From: Mycobacteroides abscessus ATCC 19977
Lineage (GTDB): Bacteria > Actinomycetota > Actinomycetes > Mycobacteriales > Mycobacteriaceae
DNA length: 64,000 bases
Direction: 5' to 3'
NCBI RefSeq assembly: GCF_000069185.1
Contig: NC_010397.1
Span: forward strand, 744,001 to 808,000
Shown: positions 27,315 through 53,497 of the stretch, one piece after another
Layout of the letters: the number at the start of each line of letters is the position of its first letter
Numbering within the stretch: position 1 is the stretch's first letter
The notes under the pieces: generated by a model
What the model was told of the DNA's origin: nothing
Database searches by the model: none
Seen by the model: only the letters and a program-made list of their open reading frames with translations
Made by a program: the position numbers and the translations under genes

Positions 27315-27392
27315 AGCGCGTGTGCCCTCCTTTGGAGGCTGCCAGCGTTATGGCGGGGTCGCTCTGGCGACTGGCGGCCTGGCGTAAATGAA

Positions 27393-27486
27393 CTGGCCAG
27401 TGCATAGTGAGAAGAAAGTCAGCAAAGTAGTGGTCATGTGCAAGGGAGGGGTTGCAGTGAGCGTTGGGCTGATGGCACTGACGCCG
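27393..27486 (+). repeat. Duplicated leader/start segment, copy 1
   Basis: A stretch of about 94 bp (from CTGGCCAG through the first helix codons of the gene at 27457) recurs with scattered substitutions at 28034-28126. It covers the probable promoter, ribosome site and first codons, so the two downstream genes should be expressed alike. Confidence 0.75.
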
Positions 27487-27936
27487 GTTGTGGTGGTGTT
27501 TGGCTATCTCGGTTGGCAATCGGCCCGCGGCGTCGGGCGCTGGGTGCTAGATCGTCGGCGCCGTGACGTTTCAAATGCCGCCCTGGGATCCGAGTCGGAG
27601 GCCGGGGACGCCACAGGAATCTTTGATGGCAAACCTACTGGGCGGATTCGCGTGAAGAGTCAATCCGAATCCAGCTGGGAACTAGCGATAGAACCGATAG
27701 GTGACCATGTTCAGCTTCCTAGCGGCGACGATGCGCTCATCGAGTACGTGTTACCTGGTAGGCCGATGATCACTCGAGATGGTGTACCGGAGGTAATCGC
27801 TTACTCTGATCGCGGCATCGTTGTGTGCCTACCGCGATTCGACGAGTTCAGGGTCCTCAACAAGGCAGGCGAGATACTCATTGAAGTCGGAACCATAGGG
27901 CCGAAGCCCAGGAGTAGTGACGAAAACCCCAGCTAG
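27457..27936 (+). CDS. Membrane-anchored island protein, first paralogue of a duplicated pair
   Basis: 159 residues. Residues 1-25 form a single transmembrane helix (VSVGLMALTPVVVVFGYLGW), followed by a basic stretch RRRRD and a soluble domain of about 110 residues. GTG 27457 is chosen because GGAGGGG lies just upstream and the same upstream sequence and start recur at 28097. The start is shared with the next gene by duplication, but the C-terminal domain is unrelated to it. Unknown function. Confidence 0.65.
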   Translation: MSVGLMALTPVVVVFGYLGWQSARGVGRWVLDRRRRDVSNAALGSESEAGDATGIFDGKPTGRIRVKSQSESSWELAIEPIGDHVQLPSGDDALIEYVLPGRPMITRDGVPEVIAYSDRGIVVCLPRFDEFRVLNKAGEILIEVGTIGPKPRSSDENPS

Positions 27937-28033: not shown

Positions 28034-28126
28034 CTGGCCAGTCCATAATGAGAAGAACGTCAGCAAAGTGGCTGCCAGATGCAAGGAGTGGTTGCAGTGA
28101 GCATTGGGCTGATCGCGCTGACGCCG
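28034..28126 (+). repeat. Duplicated leader/start segment, copy 2
   Basis: Second copy of the leader at 27393-27486, with the same ribosome site AAGGAG and GTG start at 28097. Confidence 0.75.
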
Positions 28127-28360
28127 TTTGCGGTGTTACTCGGGTACCTCTGCTGGCAGTTAGTCCGCAAAGCGAGCCCTCGGGGGCCAGATCATGGCGG
28201 TCGTCGCGTTTCGGACGGTGCGCCTGGGTATAGCCCGGGAGCCGGGGCCGACACGGGAACCTTTGGCTTCTTCGGCGGATTCGGCGGAGGCAGTGGCGGC
28301 GGGTACTGCGACAGCGGCGGATTTAGTGACGGCGGTGGTGGGTGCGACGGCGGTAGCTGA
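28097..28360 (+). CDS. Small membrane protein with Gly-rich tail, second paralogue
   Basis: 87 residues. The N-terminal helix VSIGLIALTPFAVLLGYLCW is nearly the same as that of the gene at 27457, but the rest is a Gly/Ser-rich tail (GFFGGFGGGSGGGYCDSGG) with two cysteines, unrelated to the first paralogue's domain. Same leader and same terminator as that gene, so a duplicated expression cassette carries different C-terminal contents. Unknown function. Confidence 0.6.
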   Translation: MSIGLIALTPFAVLLGYLCWQLVRKASPRGPDHGGRRVSDGAPGYSPGAGADTGTFGFFGGFGGGSGGGYCDSGGFSDGGGGCDGGS

Positions 28361-29144: not shown

Positions 29145-30329
29145 ATGGTCATGAAGGAGCGTTGGACGATGCCAGCGGGTTTGCGGCGAGCCTCGGCGCT
29201 GGTGGCAATTGTCGCTTTGGCTGTCGGTGGAGCGAAGGTTATCGACGGCCACACCGTCGCTGGTAGCGGCTTTTCGGCGGTCGCGACCGTGGCAGCTGAT
29301 CCCACTGGCGGCCCAACAGGCGGGCCTGGCAGCGGGCCCGGAGGAATGAATGGAAGTCAGTTTCAGCCACCTTCTGCGCCTCAGCAGATGCCCGACTATC
29401 AGGGTGGAAACAACTTGCCGCCGCTAGATCAGAATGGCGGAATCAGCATCTATAACAGCGGGGTTCAAGGTGCCCCGCAACAGGCGCCGGGTGAGCAAAG
29501 CGCGCAACAGCCTCAGCAGGGCTGGGATCAGCCCGCTCATGGGAATCAGATTCCTGACTATCAAACGAATCCCGGGTTCACCCAAGGCCCCGGTAAGCCC
29601 AACCCGGACGCTCAAGCGCCTCAGCAAGGCAACCAGCCTCAGCAGGGTCAGCAGCAGCCGAGTCAAGCCCCGACACAACAGCAGCAGCCGGGGCAGGAGC
29701 GCGATAGTGATCGAATTCGGGATTTCTCCGAGAGGTGCAGTCTGGCGTCTGATGTGCTGCAGTCGGGAAGTGTGCCGGTCTCGCTGATCGGTGCGGCAGG
29801 GGGCGCCTTGGTGAATGCGCGCCTCGAGCCTGGTCGGGACCCGAGTATTCCGATTTGCCCGGACTGTAACCCACCGGTTCTTAAGCAATTCACTGATGGG
29901 GACAATCCGCTGGATCAGTTGTGGCGGGATGTGCTCAAAAAGTACGTCGACGAGAAGATGGATGAAGCCAAAGAAGAGGCCATTGACAGTGCTTTGGAGC
30001 CGTTGAAGAAGTGGCTCTCGGAGAACTCGACGGCGGACTGCGGTATCACCTCATGCTCGGTCTATTTCCACAAGAACGTAACGAAGTGGCTTAAGGACAA
30101 CGCAGCACTTACTGCTCTTGCTCCGGCGGTAAGCGGCTATATCCTGTGCACTGTCGTCGGCGCTAAAACTAACGCGTATGTGGGTGGCGCATGCGGATTG
30201 GCGAATACCGCCAGCTGGGCTTTTCTTATCAATGCCATCAACCGTGCGGGCGACGGCACTGGTTGCCTGCGCGTGCGTGCGGGTATCCCTGCCGGGTATT
30301 ACGCTGATCATTCGGGGTTCTGTGTATGA
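29145..30329 (+). CDS. Secreted Pro/Gln-rich protein with Cys-rich C-terminal domain
   Basis: 394 residues. A signal peptide (hydrophobic 13-32) is followed by a Gly/Pro-rich segment, the module QMPDYQGG...PPLDQNGGISIYN (residues 81-104), a Pro/Gln-rich linker to about 188 and a C-terminal domain of about 200 residues. That domain has roughly ten cysteines and ends with LRVRAGIPAGYYADHSGFCV. The module recurs in the protein at 49272. ATG 29169, preceded by AAGGAG, is an alternative start. It overlaps a lipoprotein gene by 4 nt. A secreted effector/toxin is plausible; function is not known. Confidence 0.7.
   Translation: MVMKERWTMPAGLRRASALVAIVALAVGGAKVIDGHTVAGSGFSAVATVAADPTGGPTGGPGSGPGGMNGSQFQPPSAPQQMPDYQGGNNLPPLDQNGGISIYNSGVQGAPQQAPGEQSAQQPQQGWDQPAHGNQIPDYQTNPGFTQGPGKPNPDAQAPQQGNQPQQGQQQPSQAPTQQQQPGQERDSDRIRDFSERCSLASDVLQSGSVPVSLIGAAGGALVNARLEPGRDPSIPICPDCNPPVLKQFTDGDNPLDQLWRDVLKKYVDEKMDEAKEEAIDSALEPLKKWLSENSTADCGITSCSVYFHKNVTKWLKDNAALTALAPAVSGYILCTVVGAKTNAYVGGACGLANTASWAFLINAINRAGDGTGCLRVRAGIPAGYYADHSGFCV
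29385..29456 (+). repeat. PPLDQN-GISIYN module, copy 1 (coding)
   Basis: Coding segment for QMPDYQGG-NN-LPPLDQNGGISIYN in the secreted island protein. The same module, with similar codons, is at 50298-50381 in another gene. Both copies precede an AHG-xx-P-D/N-Y element and a Pro/Gln-rich linker. Confidence 0.85.
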
Positions 30330-30952: not shown

Positions 30953-31534
30953 ATGTTTGCCAAGACCGGATCTTTGATCGCTGGGATGGTCGTACTCTCA
31001 GTAGCGGGATGCTCAAGCACGGAGCCATCAGGGACGGGCGCCACGACAGTCCGTACCTCCGTAGCGTCAGGTCCGGTGGATTTCGCAAAGATCCCGGGAC
31101 AAATACCTGCTGAGGCGGAAATGACGCAGCAGGGAAGCGAAGAGGCGCCTATCGGAGCCTGCGTCTACCTCAAGGGAAAACCCGGCAGCGTCACGCTAAA
31201 CAAAGTGGACTGTGACTCCCAAGATGCGAACTACCGTGTCATCCAGAGAGTCGGCTTCCCTGACCAATGCGTCAACGACGCAGACCGACGATTCTACTTG
31301 GGCAGTCCGCAGGGCGAATGGACTGCCTGCATGGACTACGCATGGACGAGTGAGGGCTGCATCAGCGTCGCGCCGGACAAGGTTGTCCGGGCCGAATGTG
31401 ATGACAAAAATCTGCCGAACCGAGAACGGCCAATAACGATCTTATTCAATACGATTGATACCAGCCGCTGTCTTTTCGGCGGGTTTGCACATCCGGTGCG
31501 CCGGTTCACGGTATGTACGGAGACCCAGAAGTAG
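30953..31534 (+). CDS. LppU-like lipoprotein
   Basis: 193 residues. Lipobox SVAGCS (Cys about 20). The mature domain has the LppU-type pattern: IGACVYLKGKPGSV near residue 64, VDCDSQDANYRVIQRVGFPDQC and a late Cys pair, with eight cysteines in all, probably disulphide-bonded outside the membrane. LppU-family function is unknown. Fourth gene of the operon headed by the secreted Pro/Gln-rich protein. Confidence 0.72.
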   Translation: MFAKTGSLIAGMVVLSVAGCSSTEPSGTGATTVRTSVASGPVDFAKIPGQIPAEAEMTQQGSEEAPIGACVYLKGKPGSVTLNKVDCDSQDANYRVIQRVGFPDQCVNDADRRFYLGSPQGEWTACMDYAWTSEGCISVAPDKVVRAECDDKNLPNRERPITILFNTIDTSRCLFGGFAHPVRRFTVCTETQK

Positions 31535-31544
31535 CCTGTCATGT

Positions 31545-32340
31545 GTGGCTGATGGTGTAGCTCAGCGGCGGTGGACCGCTGACGAGCTGGCAGTGGCGCT
31601 GGACCGGTCACTATCGTGCGCCGAGGCTGGCGCGAGGTTGGGCCGCACCCGGCTACAGGTGGAGAAGGCTCGAAAGCGGTACCGGGGACGCGATATTGAG
31701 CAACTGCTCGCCCAGAAACGTGGTCGCGCTGCCGAGCTAGAGCAGGTAGCCGAGACCGACATCGCCTGCTATGGGTCATGGACACCACAGGAGATCGCGA
31801 TCGCACTGGATCGGTCGATTTCCCGCACTGAAGCGGCCCGCCGGTTGGGGCGTTCCTTCAGGGCGATCAAGCACATTCGAGACCTGCAGCGCCAAAAGGC
31901 CTCGGGTTTGATCCCGGCGCGCGAGTCGCGCGCGGAGCCGATACGGCAGCGCCTCTGGACCGAGGATGAGATCGCTGTCCTGGCCGATGAGTCCCGCACA
32001 CCTACGGAGATTGCCGCCTTCGATCAATTCGGTCACTGTGGCTCGTGCGCGGTGGCTGGGGCGCCTGCAGGGCAAGGTCCCTGAACATCTGCACGGAACC
32101 AACACGGGCGTGAGCCGATACGGATGCCTATGTCCGCGGTGCCGGGACGCGGCCGAAGCAGAGCGGGAGCGACGCCAAGAGGCCACCCGGCACACGGCGG
32201 TCAACTACAAGGCGCCCTGGACCGACAGCGATATCGAGATCGCGCTAGATCGCAACCTGACCGTGATTGAGGCCGCCCAGCGCTTGGGACGAACCCACAG
32301 CGCGGTGCGTGCGCTGCGATACAAGTACCGAGACTCCTGA
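31545..32340 (+). pseudogene. Tandem SANT/Myb-like HTH protein, frameshifted
   Basis: Four repeats of one DNA-binding unit are readable: RRWTADELAVALDRSLSCAEAGARLGR, WTPQEIAIALDRSIS-x-TEAARRLGR, WTEDEIAVLADESRTPTEIAA (broken) and WTDSDIEIALDRNLTVIEAAQRLGR. Between repeats 3 and 4 lies an HGTNTG...YGC-x-CPRC motif frequent in actinophage proteins. The frame changes near 32015-32025, splitting the gene into 31545-32084 and a continuation ending at 32340. Restoring one frame gives a protein of about 264 residues. Probably an inactive phage-derived regulator. Confidence 0.65.
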
Positions 32341-34788: not shown

Positions 34789-35067
34789 ATTTCGATCCGA
34801 CTGAAGCAAGAGCTGGTTGCGTTGGGTCTATCGGTGAACAGGGCGGCCAAAGAGCTTGGTGTAAGCCAACCTTGGCTGTCACGCCGAACCCTCGGTGGCG
34901 TCCGATGGAAGGTGGAGGAGGTAGACGACATCTGCGACAAGCTCGGTCTTGATGCCAACTACACCCTCACCGGTTACCGCTCACTGCCTGACGGCGGTGA
35001 CGACGGCGGTGCTGCTGGTGCCCCCACCAGGGCTCGAACCTGGGACCTGCGGATTAAAAGTCCGTAG
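34789..35067 (+). CDS. Cro/C1-type HTH protein ending in the attachment core
   Basis: About 92 residues in the integrated state. The HTH is residues 3-40 (RLKQELVALGLSVNRAAKEL, then GVSQPWLSRR), followed by VEEVDDICDKLGL. No ATG/GTG/TTG lies at a convincing place; the frame is open upstream and ATT 34789 only marks where homology begins, so the 5' end may be damaged. The last 15 residues are read antisense through tRNA-Lys. Joining the left end would replace the stop at 35065 and add 26 residues ending ERKAA. Confidence 0.6.
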   Translation: MSIRLKQELVALGLSVNRAAKELGVSQPWLSRRTLGGVRWKVEEVDDICDKLGLDANYTLTGYRSLPDGGDDGGAAGAPTRARTWDLRIKSP

Positions 35068-35091
35068 CTCTACCAACTGAGCTATAGGGGC
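35019..35091 (-). tRNA. tRNA-Lys (TTT anticodon)
   Basis: 73-nt cloverleaf on the minus strand. Acceptor GCCCCTA pairs with TGGGGGC, anticodon TTT, TTCGAGC T-loop; CCA is encoded at 35016-35018. Its 3' half is the att core of the island to the left. Confidence 0.95.
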
Positions 35092-35230
35092 GTGCCGAGA
35101 CAGGATACTGGTCGAGTGTGCGCGCGAGCACCGAGGTTATCCGGTTTGGGTTCTGAGGCAGTTGTGCCCTAAGCTGGGCGAGCTCCCAACGCGACACGCG
35201 TTGTGGGTACCCCGGAGAGATTCGGAACGG

Positions 35231-35303
35231 GCCCCCATCGTCTAGTGGCCTAGGACGCCGCCCTTTCACGGCGGTAGCACGGGTTCGAATCCCGTTGGGG
35301 GTA
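35231..35303 (+). tRNA. tRNA-Glu (TTC anticodon)
   Basis: 73-nt cloverleaf with acceptor GCCCCCA, anticodon loop CTTTCAC and T-loop TTCGAAT. First of three plus-strand tRNAs in a row; CCA is not encoded. Confidence 0.95.
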
Positions 35304-35332
35304 CGCAACCAGTCATACTGGGAGCAGAGTAA

Positions 35333-35406
35333 GGCCCTGTGGCGCAGTTGGTTAGCGCGCCGCCCTGTCACGGCGGAGGTCGCGGGTTCGAGTCCCGTCA
35401 GGGTCG
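35333..35406 (+). tRNA. tRNA-Asp (GTC anticodon)
   Basis: 74-nt cloverleaf with acceptor GGCCCTG/CAGGGTC, anticodon loop CTGTCAC, T-loop TTCGAGT; CCA encoded at 35407-35409. Lies 29 nt after tRNA-Glu. Confidence 0.95.
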
Positions 35407-35445
35407 CCAGTACGGCGAGGCAGTAAGTAGTTGGGTCTGCCGTCC

Positions 35446-35519
35446 GGCCAGGTAGCTCAGTTGGTACGAGCGTCCGCCTGAAAAGCGGAAGGTCGCCGGT
35501 TCGATCCCGGCCCTGGCCA
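35446..35519 (+). tRNA. tRNA-Phe (GAA anticodon)
   Basis: 74-nt cloverleaf with acceptor GGCCAGG/CCTGGCC, anticodon loop CTGAAAA, T-loop TTCGATC; CCA at 35520-35522. Last tRNA of the cluster. The foreign-looking region to the right begins just after it. Confidence 0.95.
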
Positions 35520-35523
35520 CCAT

Positions 35524-48077: not shown

Positions 48078-49214
48078 ATGCCTAGGCGGTTCCATCTCAG
48101 ATCGGTTTTGTTGGCGGCCGTGACAGCGGTTGCTGGGTTTGCGTTATCTAGCGCGAGTGCAGCTGGAGCAGACCCCAATCAGCCTGGGCCTCCTGCTCCG
48201 GCTCCGCCGCCGTTGGCGGTGCCGCAGCCCGATAATTTGCCGCGTGCGGTGAGTATTGGTGGGGCACAGGCTAAGACGAATGTGCCGCAAGGGATGGGGT
48301 CAGGAACAGGGCGACCTCTTGCGGAGGCGCGCCAGCGTGGTGTGGTGGCCGTTCCGCCAATCGCTACCGACGGGGTACATGCCGCGACCGCTTGGCCAGG
48401 CAAGCAAGTCGTCATCCATCTACCCAACGAACGGGCCTTGACGGCTGCCAATTGGGGTGAGGGCGGTGCGGCCGCATACGGATCAGGCCCGGTGGATTAT
48501 GTGGTGCTCCCCGATGCCGGCGGGGGCGCCGATATTCGCATGATTCGCAAGACCTTCATCTCGCCGAGTGACTTCACGTTGGGCGTCCGCTATCCGGAGG
48601 GCACTCATCTGCGCCAAGCCGCGCAAGCGGTGGTTGTTGAGACCGATGCAGCCCCCGGACATTCGGCAGCGATTATCGGGGCGCTGAGCATCCCTGATGC
48701 AAAAGACGGTGCCGGTAACCCGATCCCGGTCACACCGTTGGTCGGGGGAAGTTATCTGTATCAGCAATCGGATGTGAATCTGAACGTCGGCGATGTCGGA
48801 TTGCTCAATTTTCCCGTCACCATCACCGTGGCCTACCGGCCATCTACCGGTGTTCCGGCGGTCGCTCAAGGCGATCCCGCGCCTAAAGCACCAGCGGGCA
48901 GTGCGGCCGGGCGGTGTGTGTCTGGGCCGCCACAATTCGCCGGCGGCGGGGACGACGGAACCCCTGGCGGGGCCGCTGATTTCGCGCCGTCGTGTGCCCG
49001 GCTGGCTGCGTGCATGAGCGCTGCCCCCGCCCACACCAGCGCCCTAACGTGTGAGAACACGTTTATGGCCGACCTGACGAATACCTGCGTGGCCGCGTTC
49101 GGCCACGACGGCGGTGACTACGAGGGCTGCCTGGCCACCGCCAACGGGCATGTGCGGTGGGCCAAAGAAAACCTGGCACCCGGCCAGCCCGCCGCAGCAG
49201 CGGGCGGAGCTTGA
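48078..49214 (+). CDS. Secreted protein of unknown function
   Basis: 378 residues. Signal peptide MPRRFHLRSVLLAAVTAVAG with cleavage after SSASAAGA, a Pro-rich segment, then a beta-rich domain (PDNLPRAVSIGGAQAK, GQVVIHLPNE-like strands, IRMIRKTFISPSDFTLGVRY). The C-terminal region of about 80 residues is Cys-rich (RCVSGPP, SCARLAACM, TCENTF, TCVAAFG, GCLATANG). GTG 47967 with AAGGGGGG upstream would give a longer start, but the signal peptide favours 48078. First gene of the second secreted-protein cluster. Confidence 0.65.
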   Translation: MPRRFHLRSVLLAAVTAVAGFALSSASAAGADPNQPGPPAPAPPPLAVPQPDNLPRAVSIGGAQAKTNVPQGMGSGTGRPLAEARQRGVVAVPPIATDGVHAATAWPGKQVVIHLPNERALTAANWGEGGAAAYGSGPVDYVVLPDAGGGADIRMIRKTFISPSDFTLGVRYPEGTHLRQAAQAVVVETDAAPGHSAAIIGALSIPDAKDGAGNPIPVTPLVGGSYLYQQSDVNLNVGDVGLLNFPVTITVAYRPSTGVPAVAQGDPAPKAPAGSAAGRCVSGPPQFAGGGDDGTPGGAADFAPSCARLAACMSAAPAHTSALTCENTFMADLTNTCVAAFGHDGGDYEGCLATANGHVRWAKENLAPGQPAAAAGGA

Positions 49215-49271: not shown

Positions 49272-51428
49272 ATGACCGACACCGATCGCCCTGATGGCGA
49301 TGATGCGCCCACGCAAACCCTGCCCGCCGCAGCCCCATTGTCCGCGCCGGAGTTGACGGGCTTTCCTGCCGGGATCGTCGGGGCCGCGCTGACGGTGCTC
49401 GGGGTGTGGGGTCTACATGTGCTCACCCGCGGTGATGGTGTGGCAGGTGTCCTCGGCTGGGTGATCCTGCTGTGCTTGGCCTTTAGCGCCTTGGGTAAAG
49501 GCATCACCTTGCTACGTCGCGCCCTGGCCCCGCTGTCGGCGGTGTGGTCGGCATCGGTCGACGGTGTGCCACCGCTGCTACGAGCCGCGGCGGGGATCAT
49601 TGTCGGTGCGGCCGGTATCTGGTGGGTGATGCGCGGACACGCCAGCGGATGGTGGGCACAGATAACCGGCGGTGACTCCGGCAGCGGGCTGGGGTGGTCG
49701 CTGCCCTCACAGCTCGTGCAAGTGGCGATCATGGTGGTCGCCGGAGCGCTGCTGTTCGGCGGCGCCAAGGTCTTGGGCAAGCTTATCTTCGCCAACTCCG
49801 GTACCCGCCAACAGCCCTCACCCAACCACGACGGTGGCCAGCGTTGGCGGCAGTGGTGGGCCAGCCACCCTGGCCTGGGTTTGACGCTGCTGGCTGGCGG
49901 CGGCGCTCTGGTGTTCCTGTCCGGGTATGTAGTTCCGCGGGTGTCGTCATGGTTGACCGGCGATGACCCGATGGCGGCCCTGGCGGCGATCACCGCGATC
50001 CTGGCTCTGGCGCTGCTGGCCAACACGTGGTGGTGGCGGGCGCTGTCGGGCTGGTGGGCGTGGGCTCACACCCCCAACGGCCCCGGCGGGCCCACCCCGA
50101 TCGGGCAGATCTATGCCGGCGCCGGGGTGTTGGCATTGATCGCGTTCTCGGCCACCGCCTTCGGTCTGGCCACCTTCTCCTCTTACCTGCCCCAGAACGC
50201 CGCTACAGCTTCGGCTGATCCGTGTGGGGATCGTTGTGGTGGGGGTGGCAATGGGCAAGGTTCCTATGGTCCAGATACCGGTAACTTCCAGCCTCCGCAG
50301 ATGCCCGGTCAGCAGCCCGACTATCAAGGCGGGATCAATCAGCCGCCGCTAGACCAAAACTCGGGGATCTCGATTTACAACGAAAGCCCTGGCCAGGGCG
50401 GTCAGCAGATTCCGCAACAAAACATGGGCCCGCAGACCTCTGGCCAGCGCGCCGCACACGGAGAACCGTTGCCCAACTACGGGCCCTGGCAACCCGACGC
50501 ACAACCTCCCGCCCAAGCACCCGTACAACAGGCACCCGTTCAGCAGGCTCCTCAAGCTCCGCAGCAGCCCGCACAAGCACCACAAAATCCTGCCGGCCAG
50601 CAGCCGGCGCAGCAGGCACCGCAACAACCAGCCGGGCAGCAACCGGCACAACAGAATCCGCCGCAACAGGGCCAGCCTGGCCAGCAGCAGCCACAGAATC
50701 CTGTCAACCAGCAGACCCCGCAACAGCAGCCGCAGAAAGAGCCGGACACACCGAAGAAGAATCCGATGGATCCCACGGATCTCGCGACGGCGGCCACACG
50801 CCGCGGTTCACAACAAGCCGGGCAGCAAGCCGCCCAGCAGGCTGGACAACAAGGCGCCCAACAAGCGGCCCAGCAGACCACCCAGGGGACACAGCAGGCG
50901 ACCCAGCAGGGCACACAAAAGCCGGTCGAATCCGGCGAACAGTTCCCCGCCGACTTCCACATGGGCCAGCTCGGTGACGGCCTGAGCAAAACCGGGAAGT
51001 ACGCCAATACAGGTACCCACTGGGCTCCCGACGCGAAAGTCTCGACCATGTCGAAAAGCACGGCCCAAAACCTTCTGCGGGCCGGAGAAAAGTTCACTTG
51101 GCTGGGGCGTGGGATGGAAGTCGCCAAAGCTGGTGTCGACTTGGCCAATGGTGCGCCGGTACCGGAAACGGTCGGTAGCACTGTGGGTTCGCTTGCCGGC
51201 GCGTGGGCCGGGGCCGAGGGCGGTGCCATCATCGGGGCCTCGATCGGATCATTCTTCCCCGGCCCCGGCACCGTGATCGGGGGTGCAGTAGGCGGGGTGA
51301 TCGGCGGGTTCGTCGGCAGCGGCCTAGGCTCCGAAGTAGGAAAAGCGGCCGGCGGGGCTGTCCGCGCAGCTGGTTCTGCACTCTCCAAAGCTGGCGGCGC
51401 CGTCGCATCCTTCTTCGGCAGCTTGTAA
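49272..51428 (+). CDS. Polytopic protein with Pro/Gln linker and glycine-zipper C-terminus
   Basis: 718 residues. About seven transmembrane helices in residues 30-310. The module PDYQGG...PPLDQNSGISIYN follows at about 345-370, then a Pro/Gln-rich linker to about 540 and a C-terminal domain (about 560-718) ending in Gly/Ala helices (GSTVGSLAGAWAGAEGG, GGAVGGVIGGFVGSGLGSEV). The module is shared with the secreted island protein at 29145. Glycine zippers suggest a pore-forming or membrane-inserting end; a VirB6-like secretion component is the other reading. Good ribosome site at 49258. Confidence 0.7.
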   Translation: MTDTDRPDGDDAPTQTLPAAAPLSAPELTGFPAGIVGAALTVLGVWGLHVLTRGDGVAGVLGWVILLCLAFSALGKGITLLRRALAPLSAVWSASVDGVPPLLRAAAGIIVGAAGIWWVMRGHASGWWAQITGGDSGSGLGWSLPSQLVQVAIMVVAGALLFGGAKVLGKLIFANSGTRQQPSPNHDGGQRWRQWWASHPGLGLTLLAGGGALVFLSGYVVPRVSSWLTGDDPMAALAAITAILALALLANTWWWRALSGWWAWAHTPNGPGGPTPIGQIYAGAGVLALIAFSATAFGLATFSSYLPQNAATASADPCGDRCGGGGNGQGSYGPDTGNFQPPQMPGQQPDYQGGINQPPLDQNSGISIYNESPGQGGQQIPQQNMGPQTSGQRAAHGEPLPNYGPWQPDAQPPAQAPVQQAPVQQAPQAPQQPAQAPQNPAGQQPAQQAPQQPAGQQPAQQNPPQQGQPGQQQPQNPVNQQTPQQQPQKEPDTPKKNPMDPTDLATAATRRGSQQAGQQAAQQAGQQGAQQAAQQTTQGTQQATQQGTQKPVESGEQFPADFHMGQLGDGLSKTGKYANTGTHWAPDAKVSTMSKSTAQNLLRAGEKFTWLGRGMEVAKAGVDLANGAPVPETVGSTVGSLAGAWAGAEGGAIIGASIGSFFPGPGTVIGGAVGGVIGGFVGSGLGSEVGKAAGGAVRAAGSALSKAGGAVASFFGSL
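50298..50381 (+). repeat. PPLDQN-GISIYN module, copy 2 (coding)
   Basis: Codes for QMPGQQPDYQGG-IN-QPPLDQNSGISIYN. It corresponds to 29385-29456 apart from a short insertion (GQQ) and is also followed by an AHG-xx-PNY element and a Pro/Gln-rich linker. Confidence 0.85.
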
Positions 51429-52088: not shown

Positions 52089-52733
52089 GTGAAAAGCTTT
52101 AGCTTGTTAGTGGCGTTGTTTGGCGCGGTAGTTGCTGTGGGCGCCGCAGGGTGTTCGTCACCTCAGTCACCGACCGTTGCATCTGACTCACCGGCTACGT
52201 CATCAACGCCGTCGACGGCAGCCACCGCCGCAGGGTGTGCGGCTAGTGACGTTCACCGGGTCATGTTGGATACCAAGGCTGCCGAAGAGCCGAAGCTGGC
52301 ATTGCCCACACCGGCCGGATGGGAGTACACGGCGGCGATGAATTCGCCGATGATCCGCGGCACCGTCACCAATATAGGGTTGCGGGCCAACGATTTCACA
52401 CCGAACGCGGTGGTGACCTTGGAAGACCTGACCGGCAAGGTCACATCCGCCCAGCAGGGGATAGATGCCGAGATCACCGGCGTGGAACAGGGCGGTATGG
52501 CCGTGCAGTCCCGCACTGCGGGAACTGTGTGCGGGCACCCGAGCAGCACAATCACCTACACCCTGCAGAATCGACCGGTCACGGCGCTCATCACCGCAGC
52601 CGAGGACGGCGCGAAAACCTGGGCCGCGATCGTAACCATCCAAACCACCGACCCCGACAACCCTGCCTACGTTGCGAGTAAGCAAGCCATTCTCGATGGC
52701 TTCCAGTTCACGGTGTCCGGGCAGGATCAGTAG
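52089..52733 (+). CDS. LpqN/LpqT-family lipoprotein
   Basis: 214 residues. Lipobox GAAGCS (Cys about 22), a Ser/Thr/Pro linker, and a mature domain beginning LALPTPAGWE and containing AVVTLEDLTG and SRTAGTVCGHPSSTITYT, the LpqN/LpqT pattern. In M. tuberculosis LpqN is an exported lipoprotein that interacts with host and cell-wall factors. GTG start at 52089 after GGAAAGAGG. Part of the cluster with the glycine-zipper protein. Confidence 0.75.
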   Translation: MKSFSLLVALFGAVVAVGAAGCSSPQSPTVASDSPATSSTPSTAATAAGCAASDVHRVMLDTKAAEEPKLALPTPAGWEYTAAMNSPMIRGTVTNIGLRANDFTPNAVVTLEDLTGKVTSAQQGIDAEITGVEQGGMAVQSRTAGTVCGHPSSTITYTLQNRPVTALITAAEDGAKTWAAIVTIQTTDPDNPAYVASKQAILDGFQFTVSGQDQ

Positions 52734-52741
52734 CAGTTGCG

Positions 52742-53497
52742 ATGTGGCTGCGAATGGCGTTGTGGCAAGCACTGCTTGTCGTGGTTGCGATGTTGGTTGG
52801 TTGTTCGGAGCTAGTTAACGGGCGGGCGCTCAAGCCTGCACCGCCCCCTGACCCGCCCGAGCGTCCGATTACGAGGGTGTTGCCCGATCAAGCGGAACTA
52901 TCCCGAGTGCTGCGTTCGCCGATGCAGGCCAGGTACGGCGGCAGACCTGGTGGGGTGCAGATGCTGCCGGATGGCATGGCCGGCGCATCCCTGGTGGAGT
53001 GCATCAAGGTCCATGCGCCAGTCATGCGGCACACCTATGAGCAAGCGCCAGTACACGCCGCAACCCGGATTACCTGGAACACCGAGCGCGGCCACATGCA
53101 GTTCCCCGCACCGGACTTGCGGACCACATTCGGGGTTATCGAACTCGACACCTCTGACAGCGCCCGTTCTTGGTACCGACGGTTGGCGGCCGACTGGCGC
53201 CGATGTGAAGGCAAAACTGCGGTCATAGTCAGGGCCAACTACACGCTTCGCTACGACATCGGCCCCATCTCCGATGCCGGCGACCTGATGACCACGGTGC
53301 TGATGTTCTCCGGAACGGGCAGTAGCCGCCCGATGCCCGTGCAACGTGCCTTGGCCCAAGTATCGCGCTATCTCATTGATGTTGAAATCATGGACTTCGC
53401 CGATCTGAAGCACCCCGCTGAACCCGGTATAACCGACAAAGCCGAGGCCATCGCACAGCTGATCACCGATCAGATCAACGCAGGCGGCGATATATAG
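52742..53497 (+). CDS. PknH-sensor-like lipoprotein
   Basis: 251 residues. Lipobox MLVGCS near residue 21, then VNGRALKP and a domain of about 200 residues with features of the PknH extracellular sensor fold (VLPDQAELSRVLRSPM, GASLVECIKVH, VIELDTSDSARSWYRRL, WRRCEGKTAVI). Two conserved Cys (VEC, RRC) fit the disulphide of that fold. Same order as in mycobacterial lipoprotein clusters. Nine nt after the LpqN-like gene. Confidence 0.72.
   Translation: MWLRMALWQALLVVVAMLVGCSELVNGRALKPAPPPDPPERPITRVLPDQAELSRVLRSPMQARYGGRPGGVQMLPDGMAGASLVECIKVHAPVMRHTYEQAPVHAATRITWNTERGHMQFPAPDLRTTFGVIELDTSDSARSWYRRLAADWRRCEGKTAVIVRANYTLRYDIGPISDAGDLMTTVLMFSGTGSSRPMPVQRALAQVSRYLIDVEIMDFADLKHPAEPGITDKAEAIAQLITDQINAGGDI

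Follow-up and report, generated by a model that had tools for sequence, protein, structure and literature searches.

A short conserved module marks a family of predicted polymorphic toxins in Mycobacteroides, some of them encoded beside an MspA-family porin

RESULTS

Two accessory regions encode proteins with a common module

The window, a 64,000-nucleotide stretch of the Mycobacteroides abscessus ATCC 19977 genome (NC_010397.1, positions 744,001 to 808,000), holds two accessory regions, each with a gene for a module-bearing protein (Table 1). These proteins, named here by the first position of their ORFs, carry the module at the places given in an initial annotation made from the letters alone; in the 29145 protein, it reads QMPDYQGGNNLPPLDQNGGISIYN. 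That annotation had also described an AHG..P-D/N-Y element and a Pro/Gln linker in both proteins, and the alignment from a single BLASTP comparison spans all three parts, with 28 of 56 aligned columns identical (E = 6e-9). The termini are as unlike as had been claimed: the 29145 protein has one hydrophobic segment at its N-terminus versus seven in the 49272 protein, and a glycine-zipper profile matches only the latter of the two (at 15.3 bits, below the cut-off of 25). In the 49272 protein, DPTDLATAATRR marks the junction with a glycine-zipper-like C-terminal domain, which clusters with those of L146, L149, L150, L159, and L170 under a laxer clustering rule. The C-terminus of the 29145 protein is one of a diverse set that shares Cys positions and includes a hydrophobic segment; this domain, found in none of 23 other genomes, is predicted to be membrane-active.

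Tandem genes for small membrane proteins with similar N-termini (27388-27936 and 28079-28360, the latter with a Gly/Cys-rich tail) lie upstream of the first module gene, and four tRNA genes (Lys, Glu, Asp, and Phe; 35016-35522) separate the two accessory regions. GC3 is 0.59 to 0.73 in the accessory genes versus approximately 0.8 in many other long ORFs of the window.

Table 1. Features of the two accessory regions (positions are those of the window)
Feature	Position	Strand	Remarks
Class I toxin (predicted), 394 aa	29145..30329	+	Signal peptide, module, Pro/Gln linker, Cys-rich C-terminal domain
Conserved module QMPDYQGG-x-N-x-PPLDQN-x-GISIYN	29385..29456	+	~60 residues past membrane segment
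Pretoxin segment and variable C-terminal domain	29718..30326	+	Cys positions common to aligned relatives
Likely immunity lipoprotein, 145 aa	30326..30763	+	Lipobox, Rv0361-like; overlaps toxin stop by 4 bases
Hydrophobic ORF, 60 aa	30768..30950	+	Read from sequence; alternative or additional immunity candidate
LppU-like lipoprotein	30953..31534	+	Start at lipoprotein Met; ORF listed from 30836
UpB, conserved secreted protein	48078..49214	+	ORF listed from 47967
Class II toxin (predicted), 718 aa	49272..51428	+	Seven hydrophobic segments, module, Pro/Gln linker
Module of class II protein	50310..50381	+	Pattern search and alignment
Three-TM protein, 91 aa	51448..51723	+	Likely immunity to glycine-zipper toxin
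Membrane protein, 110 aa	51720..52052	+	Possible second immunity gene
LpqN-like lipoprotein	52089..52733	+	PF10738, 28.5 bits (cut-off 22.4)
PknH_C-like lipoprotein	52742..53497	+	PF14032, 68.6 bits (cut-off 27)

The family is large and mycobacterial

The family is large and occurs in the Mycobacteroides (M. abscessus-chelonae) group and in some other mycobacteria. A strict DNA pattern for the module finds four sites in the 5.09-Mb source genome (none with the reversed control) and, among 60 genomes sampled from the GTDB genus, is present in two. A profile built from 11 module regions (A2) finds six members in the source genome, namely, the two in the window and those at C2:3041939, 4917651, 220538, and 1579124, and is matched in 23 of 396 sampled genomes of the genus. 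Eleven positive genomes of 4.0 to 5.6 Mb contain 4 to 10 matches each, a few of them fragments, and twelve of 6.0 to 7.5 Mb contain 1 to 3 weaker matches each. The genomes are not independent: by size and copy number, eleven of 24 look like one clade. A pattern-based scan of 84,980 named species returned 34 loci, all from Mycobacteroides or Mycobacterium sp. Protein searches gave 318 homologues of the N-terminal part at E ≤ 0.001 (Mycobacteroides or Mycobacterium by the organism names shown for the 120 listed) and 96 homologues of a divergent form, with Mycolicibacterium among the names. PPLDQN-x-GISIYN is exact in 100 of 131 proteins examined (the 120 listed homologues and 11 from loci), and with so many homologues of the N-terminal part of these proteins, the module is not a general Pro-rich feature.

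Phage records yielded 21 matches, all from Mycobacterium phages, with M. abscessus or M. chelonae as hosts among the matches listed (20 of 21); a search of plasmid records gave no match. In two of three prophages inspected, phage genes on the opposite strand flank the toxin and the genes behind it. In prophiGD12-2, the toxin lies between opposite-strand lysis genes and a same-strand WXG polymorphic-toxin cassette. These prophage-borne toxins and the genes behind them look like added cargo, and the listed records annotate family members as hypothetical, membrane protein, or metallopeptidase.

Two N-terminal classes carry many C-terminal domains

The window and 94 fetched stretches contain 97 core-bearing ORFs (E 1e-5), and leaving out five fragments or short pieces and one duplicate gave a set of 91 predicted toxins. 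These fall into two classes by the number of hydrophobic segments ahead of the module: at most two in class I (61 proteins) and five to eight in class II (30 proteins). The SIYN end of the module lies 60 to 70 residues past the last hydrophobic segment in 47 of the 61 class I proteins (the rest being unmeasurable by script) and 59 to 66 residues past it in 29 of the 30 class II proteins (the other being unmeasurable); a separate measurement gave 58 to 69 residues in 63 proteins. A distance this near to constant fits a putative address tag or docking site. The Q that precedes GISIYN by three residues never varies in the set of 68 proteins that one expression matched. The Pro/Gln linker comes after the module, and the C-terminal domain is preceded by A-[AS]-[ST]-R-R, mostly DLSALLLGAASTRR, in 25/30 class II proteins and by two Cys, one to three residues apart, in 34/61 class I proteins. 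A twin-arginine motif ([ST]RRx[FGAVML][LITMVF]) occurs in no class I protein, though 51 of the 61 contain RR, and a Pfam search for PrsW peptidase in three whole multi-TM proteins (window 49272, L013, and L019) found none.

The middle is conserved and the C-termini vary, the pattern that the initial annotation had taken for that of modular toxins or secretion substrates. A strict rule separates the C-termini of the 91 proteins into 60 clusters, an overcount in that near-identical short C-termini (L155 and L157) and glycine zippers are split and truncated proteins are included; laxer rules give 47 to 51 clusters for 86 proteins, with truncated ones left out. Given these clusters, the module does not belong to one constant architecture of known function. 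In two paralogues of one genome, a stretch of 840 bp that begins 72 bp ahead of the start and closes with the pretoxin part matches at 98.3%, and the remainder is unrelated; we read this pair as an exchange of C-terminal domains (warheads).

Several warheads have recognizable functions. Matches above curated Pfam cut-offs include Amidase_2, Amidase_6, Matrixin, DUF6973, DUF2599, Abhydrolase_8, Endonuclea_NS_2 (in two scans), phospholipase A2, ADPrib_exo_Tox, Gln_amidase (a papain-fold toxin), SLT, Tox-REase-7, Tox-REase-5, and Colicin-DNase with WHH; GH19 and GmrSD_C fall below cut-off, and many C-termini have no Pfam match. Precomputed labels in the divergent-form search add PF15526, PF18664, and PF09000, which we take to be Ntox21, the CdiA tRNase, and a colicin E3-type domain, respectively. 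In L160 (2345-3790), L161 (5104-6513), and L099 (2114-3880), a metalloprotease-like domain seems to be followed by a second C-terminal domain; the first of the two is possibly a releasing protease.

Downstream genes are candidate immunity genes

A gene starts within 60 bp downstream of 80 of the 91 toxins (none does so in the other 11). The gap is zero or negative in 36 toxins, with an exact four-base overlap in 13, some gaps being off because ORF starts are the longest possible. Recognized immunity families appear among these neighbors. Imm52 is encoded behind Tox-REase-5 (above cut-off), a pairing already present in the portion of a 2012 survey drawn on here (PMC3482391), and a YezG-like immunity protein is encoded behind Endonuclea_NS_2 (also above cut-off). 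DUF6985 follows Colicin-DNase, and SUKH, at a subthreshold score, follows another Endonuclea_NS_2; the same family scan of six other downstream proteins gave nothing above cut-off. In prophiGD12-2, the depositors themselves named the pair a metallopeptidase and a metalloproteinase inhibitor.

The predicted compartment of the neighbor follows that of the toxin, with the reservation that toxin labels are Pfam based and were assigned with the downstream list already seen, and that clusters contribute several members each: the neighbor is soluble in 8/8 toxins of cytosolic type and is a lipoprotein, secreted, or TM protein in 19/21 envelope enzymes (one soluble, one with none within 60 bp). Where the C-terminus contains a hydrophobic segment (17 toxins), the neighbor is a multi-TM protein in only eight cases and otherwise a lipoprotein (one, 29145), a single-TM protein (one), a late-TM protein (one), a soluble protein (two), or none within 60 bp (four). 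For the 45 toxins with unlabeled warheads, the neighbor is exported or in the membrane in 30, has a late TM in 1, is soluble in 8, and is absent in 6.

Warhead and neighbor also travel together. Toxin pairs from one cluster have homologous downstream genes in 41 of 58 cases, versus 33 of 3,102 for other pairs; over 2,000 shuffles, this count averaged 1.4 and never exceeded 11. With laxer clusters, the figures are 45/74 versus 17/2,776. The 17 of 58 same-cluster pairs that lack homologous downstream genes count against such pairing, as do the 33 pairs that share them across clusters.

For the 29145 protein, the immunity gene is ambiguous between the lipoprotein and the 60-aa hydrophobic ORF. 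The lipoprotein scores 47.8 bits against Rv0361_Cterm (cut-off 37) and has only two weak matches in 23 other genomes (E = 5e-4 and 7.5e-4). Homologues of the three-TM protein behind the 49272 protein follow the similar toxins L149 and L150, not L170.

Judged by sequence, the family thus has what defines polymorphic toxins: a constant N-terminal part with a variable C-terminal part, known toxin families, and a downstream candidate immunity gene. Recognized toxin domains and recognized immunity families downstream both support the modular toxins proposed at the outset.

Recurring lipoproteins

The initial annotation had remarked on lipoproteins and membrane proteins beside both module genes and on varied C-termini as the thing to search for; that search was positive. 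The LppU-like lipoprotein falls short of the NCBIfam LppU equivalog (109.2 bits, cut-off 135) and passes the LppU/SCO3897 domain model (36.7, cut-off 25). Its relatives lie near 34/61 class I toxins, of many C-terminal types, and near 0/30 class II toxins. In L089, L104, L140, and L142, the multi-TM immunity candidate itself matches the LppU-like profile, suggesting a fusion. LpqN-like genes may be part of delivery or spare immunity genes, since they lie near 11/91 toxins and also beside a toxin-less UpA-UpB pair (L173, 7870-8514). In the window, both the LpqN-like and the PknH_C-like lipoprotein genes come after the class II toxin. A gene for a protein in which WTADELAVALDRS-type motifs are repeated (31455-32084), putatively a regulator (HTH), recurs near 12/91 toxins.

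A porin, UpA, and a secreted protein, UpB, accompany the toxins

Between a quarter and a third of the toxin genes are immediately preceded by genes for UpA, an MspA-family porin, and UpB, which has a supersandwich-like domain and a Cys-rich helical C-terminus. UpB adjoins 30 of the 91 toxins; because the other 61, including 29145 and the toxins of 22/30 class II loci, have no UpB alongside, UpA-UpB must act in trans if it serves them. The source genome has one full UpA-UpB pair (G000:C2:1888791-1890748), with no toxin alongside.

UpA and UpB are found in one and the same set of 24 genomes among the 396. This set includes all 23 with toxins, and the 24th has a weaker toxin beside the pair. These counts depend on a UpA limit of E 1e-60, chosen after UpA-type matches were seen at 1e-91 or better (split or remnant pieces lie at ~1e-53 to 1e-20, and other MspA-like porins start at ~1e-34), and on profiles built from these same genomes, which could miss distant forms elsewhere.

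UpA belongs to the MspA family by its PF09203 match and MspA rim fold; its sequence profile found no match in the PDB. Unlike MspA, it is genetically tied to toxins and has, in place of the barrel hairpin, a Gly-rich segment that is unmodeled in the predicted structure (pLDDT under 50 at 141-189). Because this region is poorly modeled, a pore is not assured. L185 (4034-5709) and L186 (4164-5758) contain a second, divergent UpA-UpB pair; its UpB is short and lacks the Cys-rich end, and no toxin lies alongside. Tandem genes in L014 (355-1026 and 1768-2439), by eye ordinary MspA porins and not of UpA type, lie ~7 kb upstream of an amidase-type toxin.

DISCUSSION

Four points go beyond the initial annotation: the division of the N-termini into two classes, the agreement in compartment between toxin and downstream gene, the partnership with UpB and an MspA-like porin, and the prophage-borne members. 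We assign a probability of about 0.8 to the reading that the module marks a toxin-immunity family with some link to UpA/UpB. The toxin-immunity identity is strongly supported by several independent lines, and toxin action held in check by cognate immunity is very probable on sequence grounds. The order of the genes, their co-occurrence, and the kind of protein that UpA is suggest that UpA/UpB probably has some role in delivery, be it export or entry. Export of toxins via UpA/UpB as such is a more tentative proposal, to which we give somewhat less than an even chance.

The proposed mechanism has four steps. (i) A signal peptide would take class I toxins across the inner membrane, and approximately seven TM helices would hold class II toxins in it; through such export or anchoring, the module would come to lie ~60 residues outside the membrane. 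(ii) PDYQGG-x-N-x-PPLDQN-x-GISIYN may then serve as a common address for UpB and/or UpA, with the Pro/Gln linker spanning the envelope, and the toxin would, via UpA, leave the producer's mycolic-acid outer membrane or enter the target. (iii) In the cytosol, the toxin would act on proteins or nucleic acid; in the envelope, it would attack peptidoglycan, lipids, proteins, or the membrane. (iv) The next gene, as is strongly supported, would encode the cognate immunity protein, sited in the compartment of toxin action: a soluble protein for cytosolic toxins, a lipoprotein or secreted protein for most envelope enzymes, and multi-TM for about half of the membrane-active toxins. Related mycobacteria would be the most likely targets. 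At its fullest, UpA-UpB would be a new mycobacterial secretion pathway, with a porin gated by a Gly-rich segment and an adaptor of supersandwich type in the periplasm moving module-tagged cargo across the outer membrane and serving a dispersed polymorphic toxin arsenal in trans, an idea that we hold just as tentatively as export.

UpA/UpB might instead act on the target cell, as receptor or translocon for entry, such that only porin-bearing kin are killed and the toxins are exported by another route. CDI toxins and colicins use BamA or OmpF in this way, a porin would be an obvious choice of receptor, and the co-occurrence of toxin, UpA, and UpB in the same genomes fits kin killing; indeed, a receptor role explains gene order and co-occurrence equally. 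However, UpA/UpB lies directly upstream of toxins in both the 4- to 5.6-Mb and the 6- to 7.5-Mb genomes, a layout commoner for export partners, and UpB resembles a soluble secreted protein, and we regard this alternative as rather unlikely.

Less likely still is export of the toxin-immunity family by type VII (ESX) secretion or another route, with UpA/UpB merely co-inherited. The portions of two prophage surveys drawn on here (PMC8092301 and PMC9434293) describe no polymorphic toxins of M. abscessus other than the WXG-100/T7SS kind, and 9/91 proteins have YxxxD/E within the last 40 residues. Against this, the proteins start with a signal peptide or multiple TM segments instead, 0/14 full-length toxins scanned match WXG100/LXG in Pfam, W-x-G occurs within the first 150 residues of only 3/61 class I proteins, and by eye there is no WXG gene in the 28 most recurrent neighbor groups listed.

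The group includes human and fish pathogens, and host cells could be the target of the phospholipase A2, ADP-ribosyltransferase, and metalloprotease domains. We nevertheless consider it improbable that the proteins are host-directed effectors (virulence factors) and not antibacterial toxins: bacterial targets are indicated by the peptidoglycan amidase, SLT, and GH19-like domains, and self-protection by a cognate downstream gene whose product is sited by compartment. That they are ordinary cell-envelope remodeling enzymes with Pro-rich linkers, as several peptidoglycan hydrolase C-termini might suggest, is hardly credible given that DNases, Tox-REases, and Imm52/YezG partners go with the same N-terminal part, that there are about 50 clusters, and that the family occurs sporadically.

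Returning to the toxin-immunity family with a UpA/UpB link, several known systems offer comparisons. CDI two-partner systems have the same toxin-immunity layout, plus an outer-membrane partner. In the text drawn on here, MafB/MafA of Neisseria are likewise described with a secreted protein, a conserved N-terminal part, a variable C-terminal part, and a downstream immunity gene (PMC4287609). The present family differs from both in that Pfam scans reveal no common N-terminal family and the partner is an MspA-fold porin. CpnT/TNT of M. tuberculosis similarly has separate N-terminal transport and C-terminal toxin parts; as the cited passages have it, ESX systems and EsxEF are needed for TNT (PMC8593097, PMC7810871, and PMC8092274), whereas the pore candidate here is a separate gene of the MspA family. 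The 49272 protein would resemble EsxX of Staphylococcus aureus in its predicted glycine-zipper, membrane-active C-terminus, but EsxX is described in the passages cited as having an LXG/T7SS N-terminus (PMC12744356).

With the WXG-100/T7SS prophage toxins, as described in the excerpts used here, the family shares hosts and toxin-immunity pairs (PMC8092301 and PMC9434293) as well as immunity proteins that are in some cases predicted lipoproteins (PMC8092301), and prophiGD12-2 carries both kinds. The module family differs by its signal peptide or multi-TM start, its module, and its MspA-like porin partner. The relevant part of the M. abscessus prophage survey has all of its polymorphic toxins carrying an N-terminal WXG-100 (PMC8092301), so the module family went unrecognized as such there. 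The initial annotation knew of no described family with this motif, and in the open PMC literature (subscription papers and preprints being outside the scope of the search) we found none, nor any description of MspA-linked toxin export. The family is apparently undescribed, and its link to an MspA-family porin and a secreted partner is new.

The toxin arsenal, which in each of eleven sampled genomes amounts to 4 to 10 profile matches, is mostly annotated as hypothetical. The passage of proteins through the mycobacterial outer membrane is a long-open question, for which UpA/UpB and the module constitute a testable candidate with a defined tag, a porin, and a partner. Some unexplained mycobacterial lipoproteins, several of which resemble immunity proteins, may likewise gain a suggested role.
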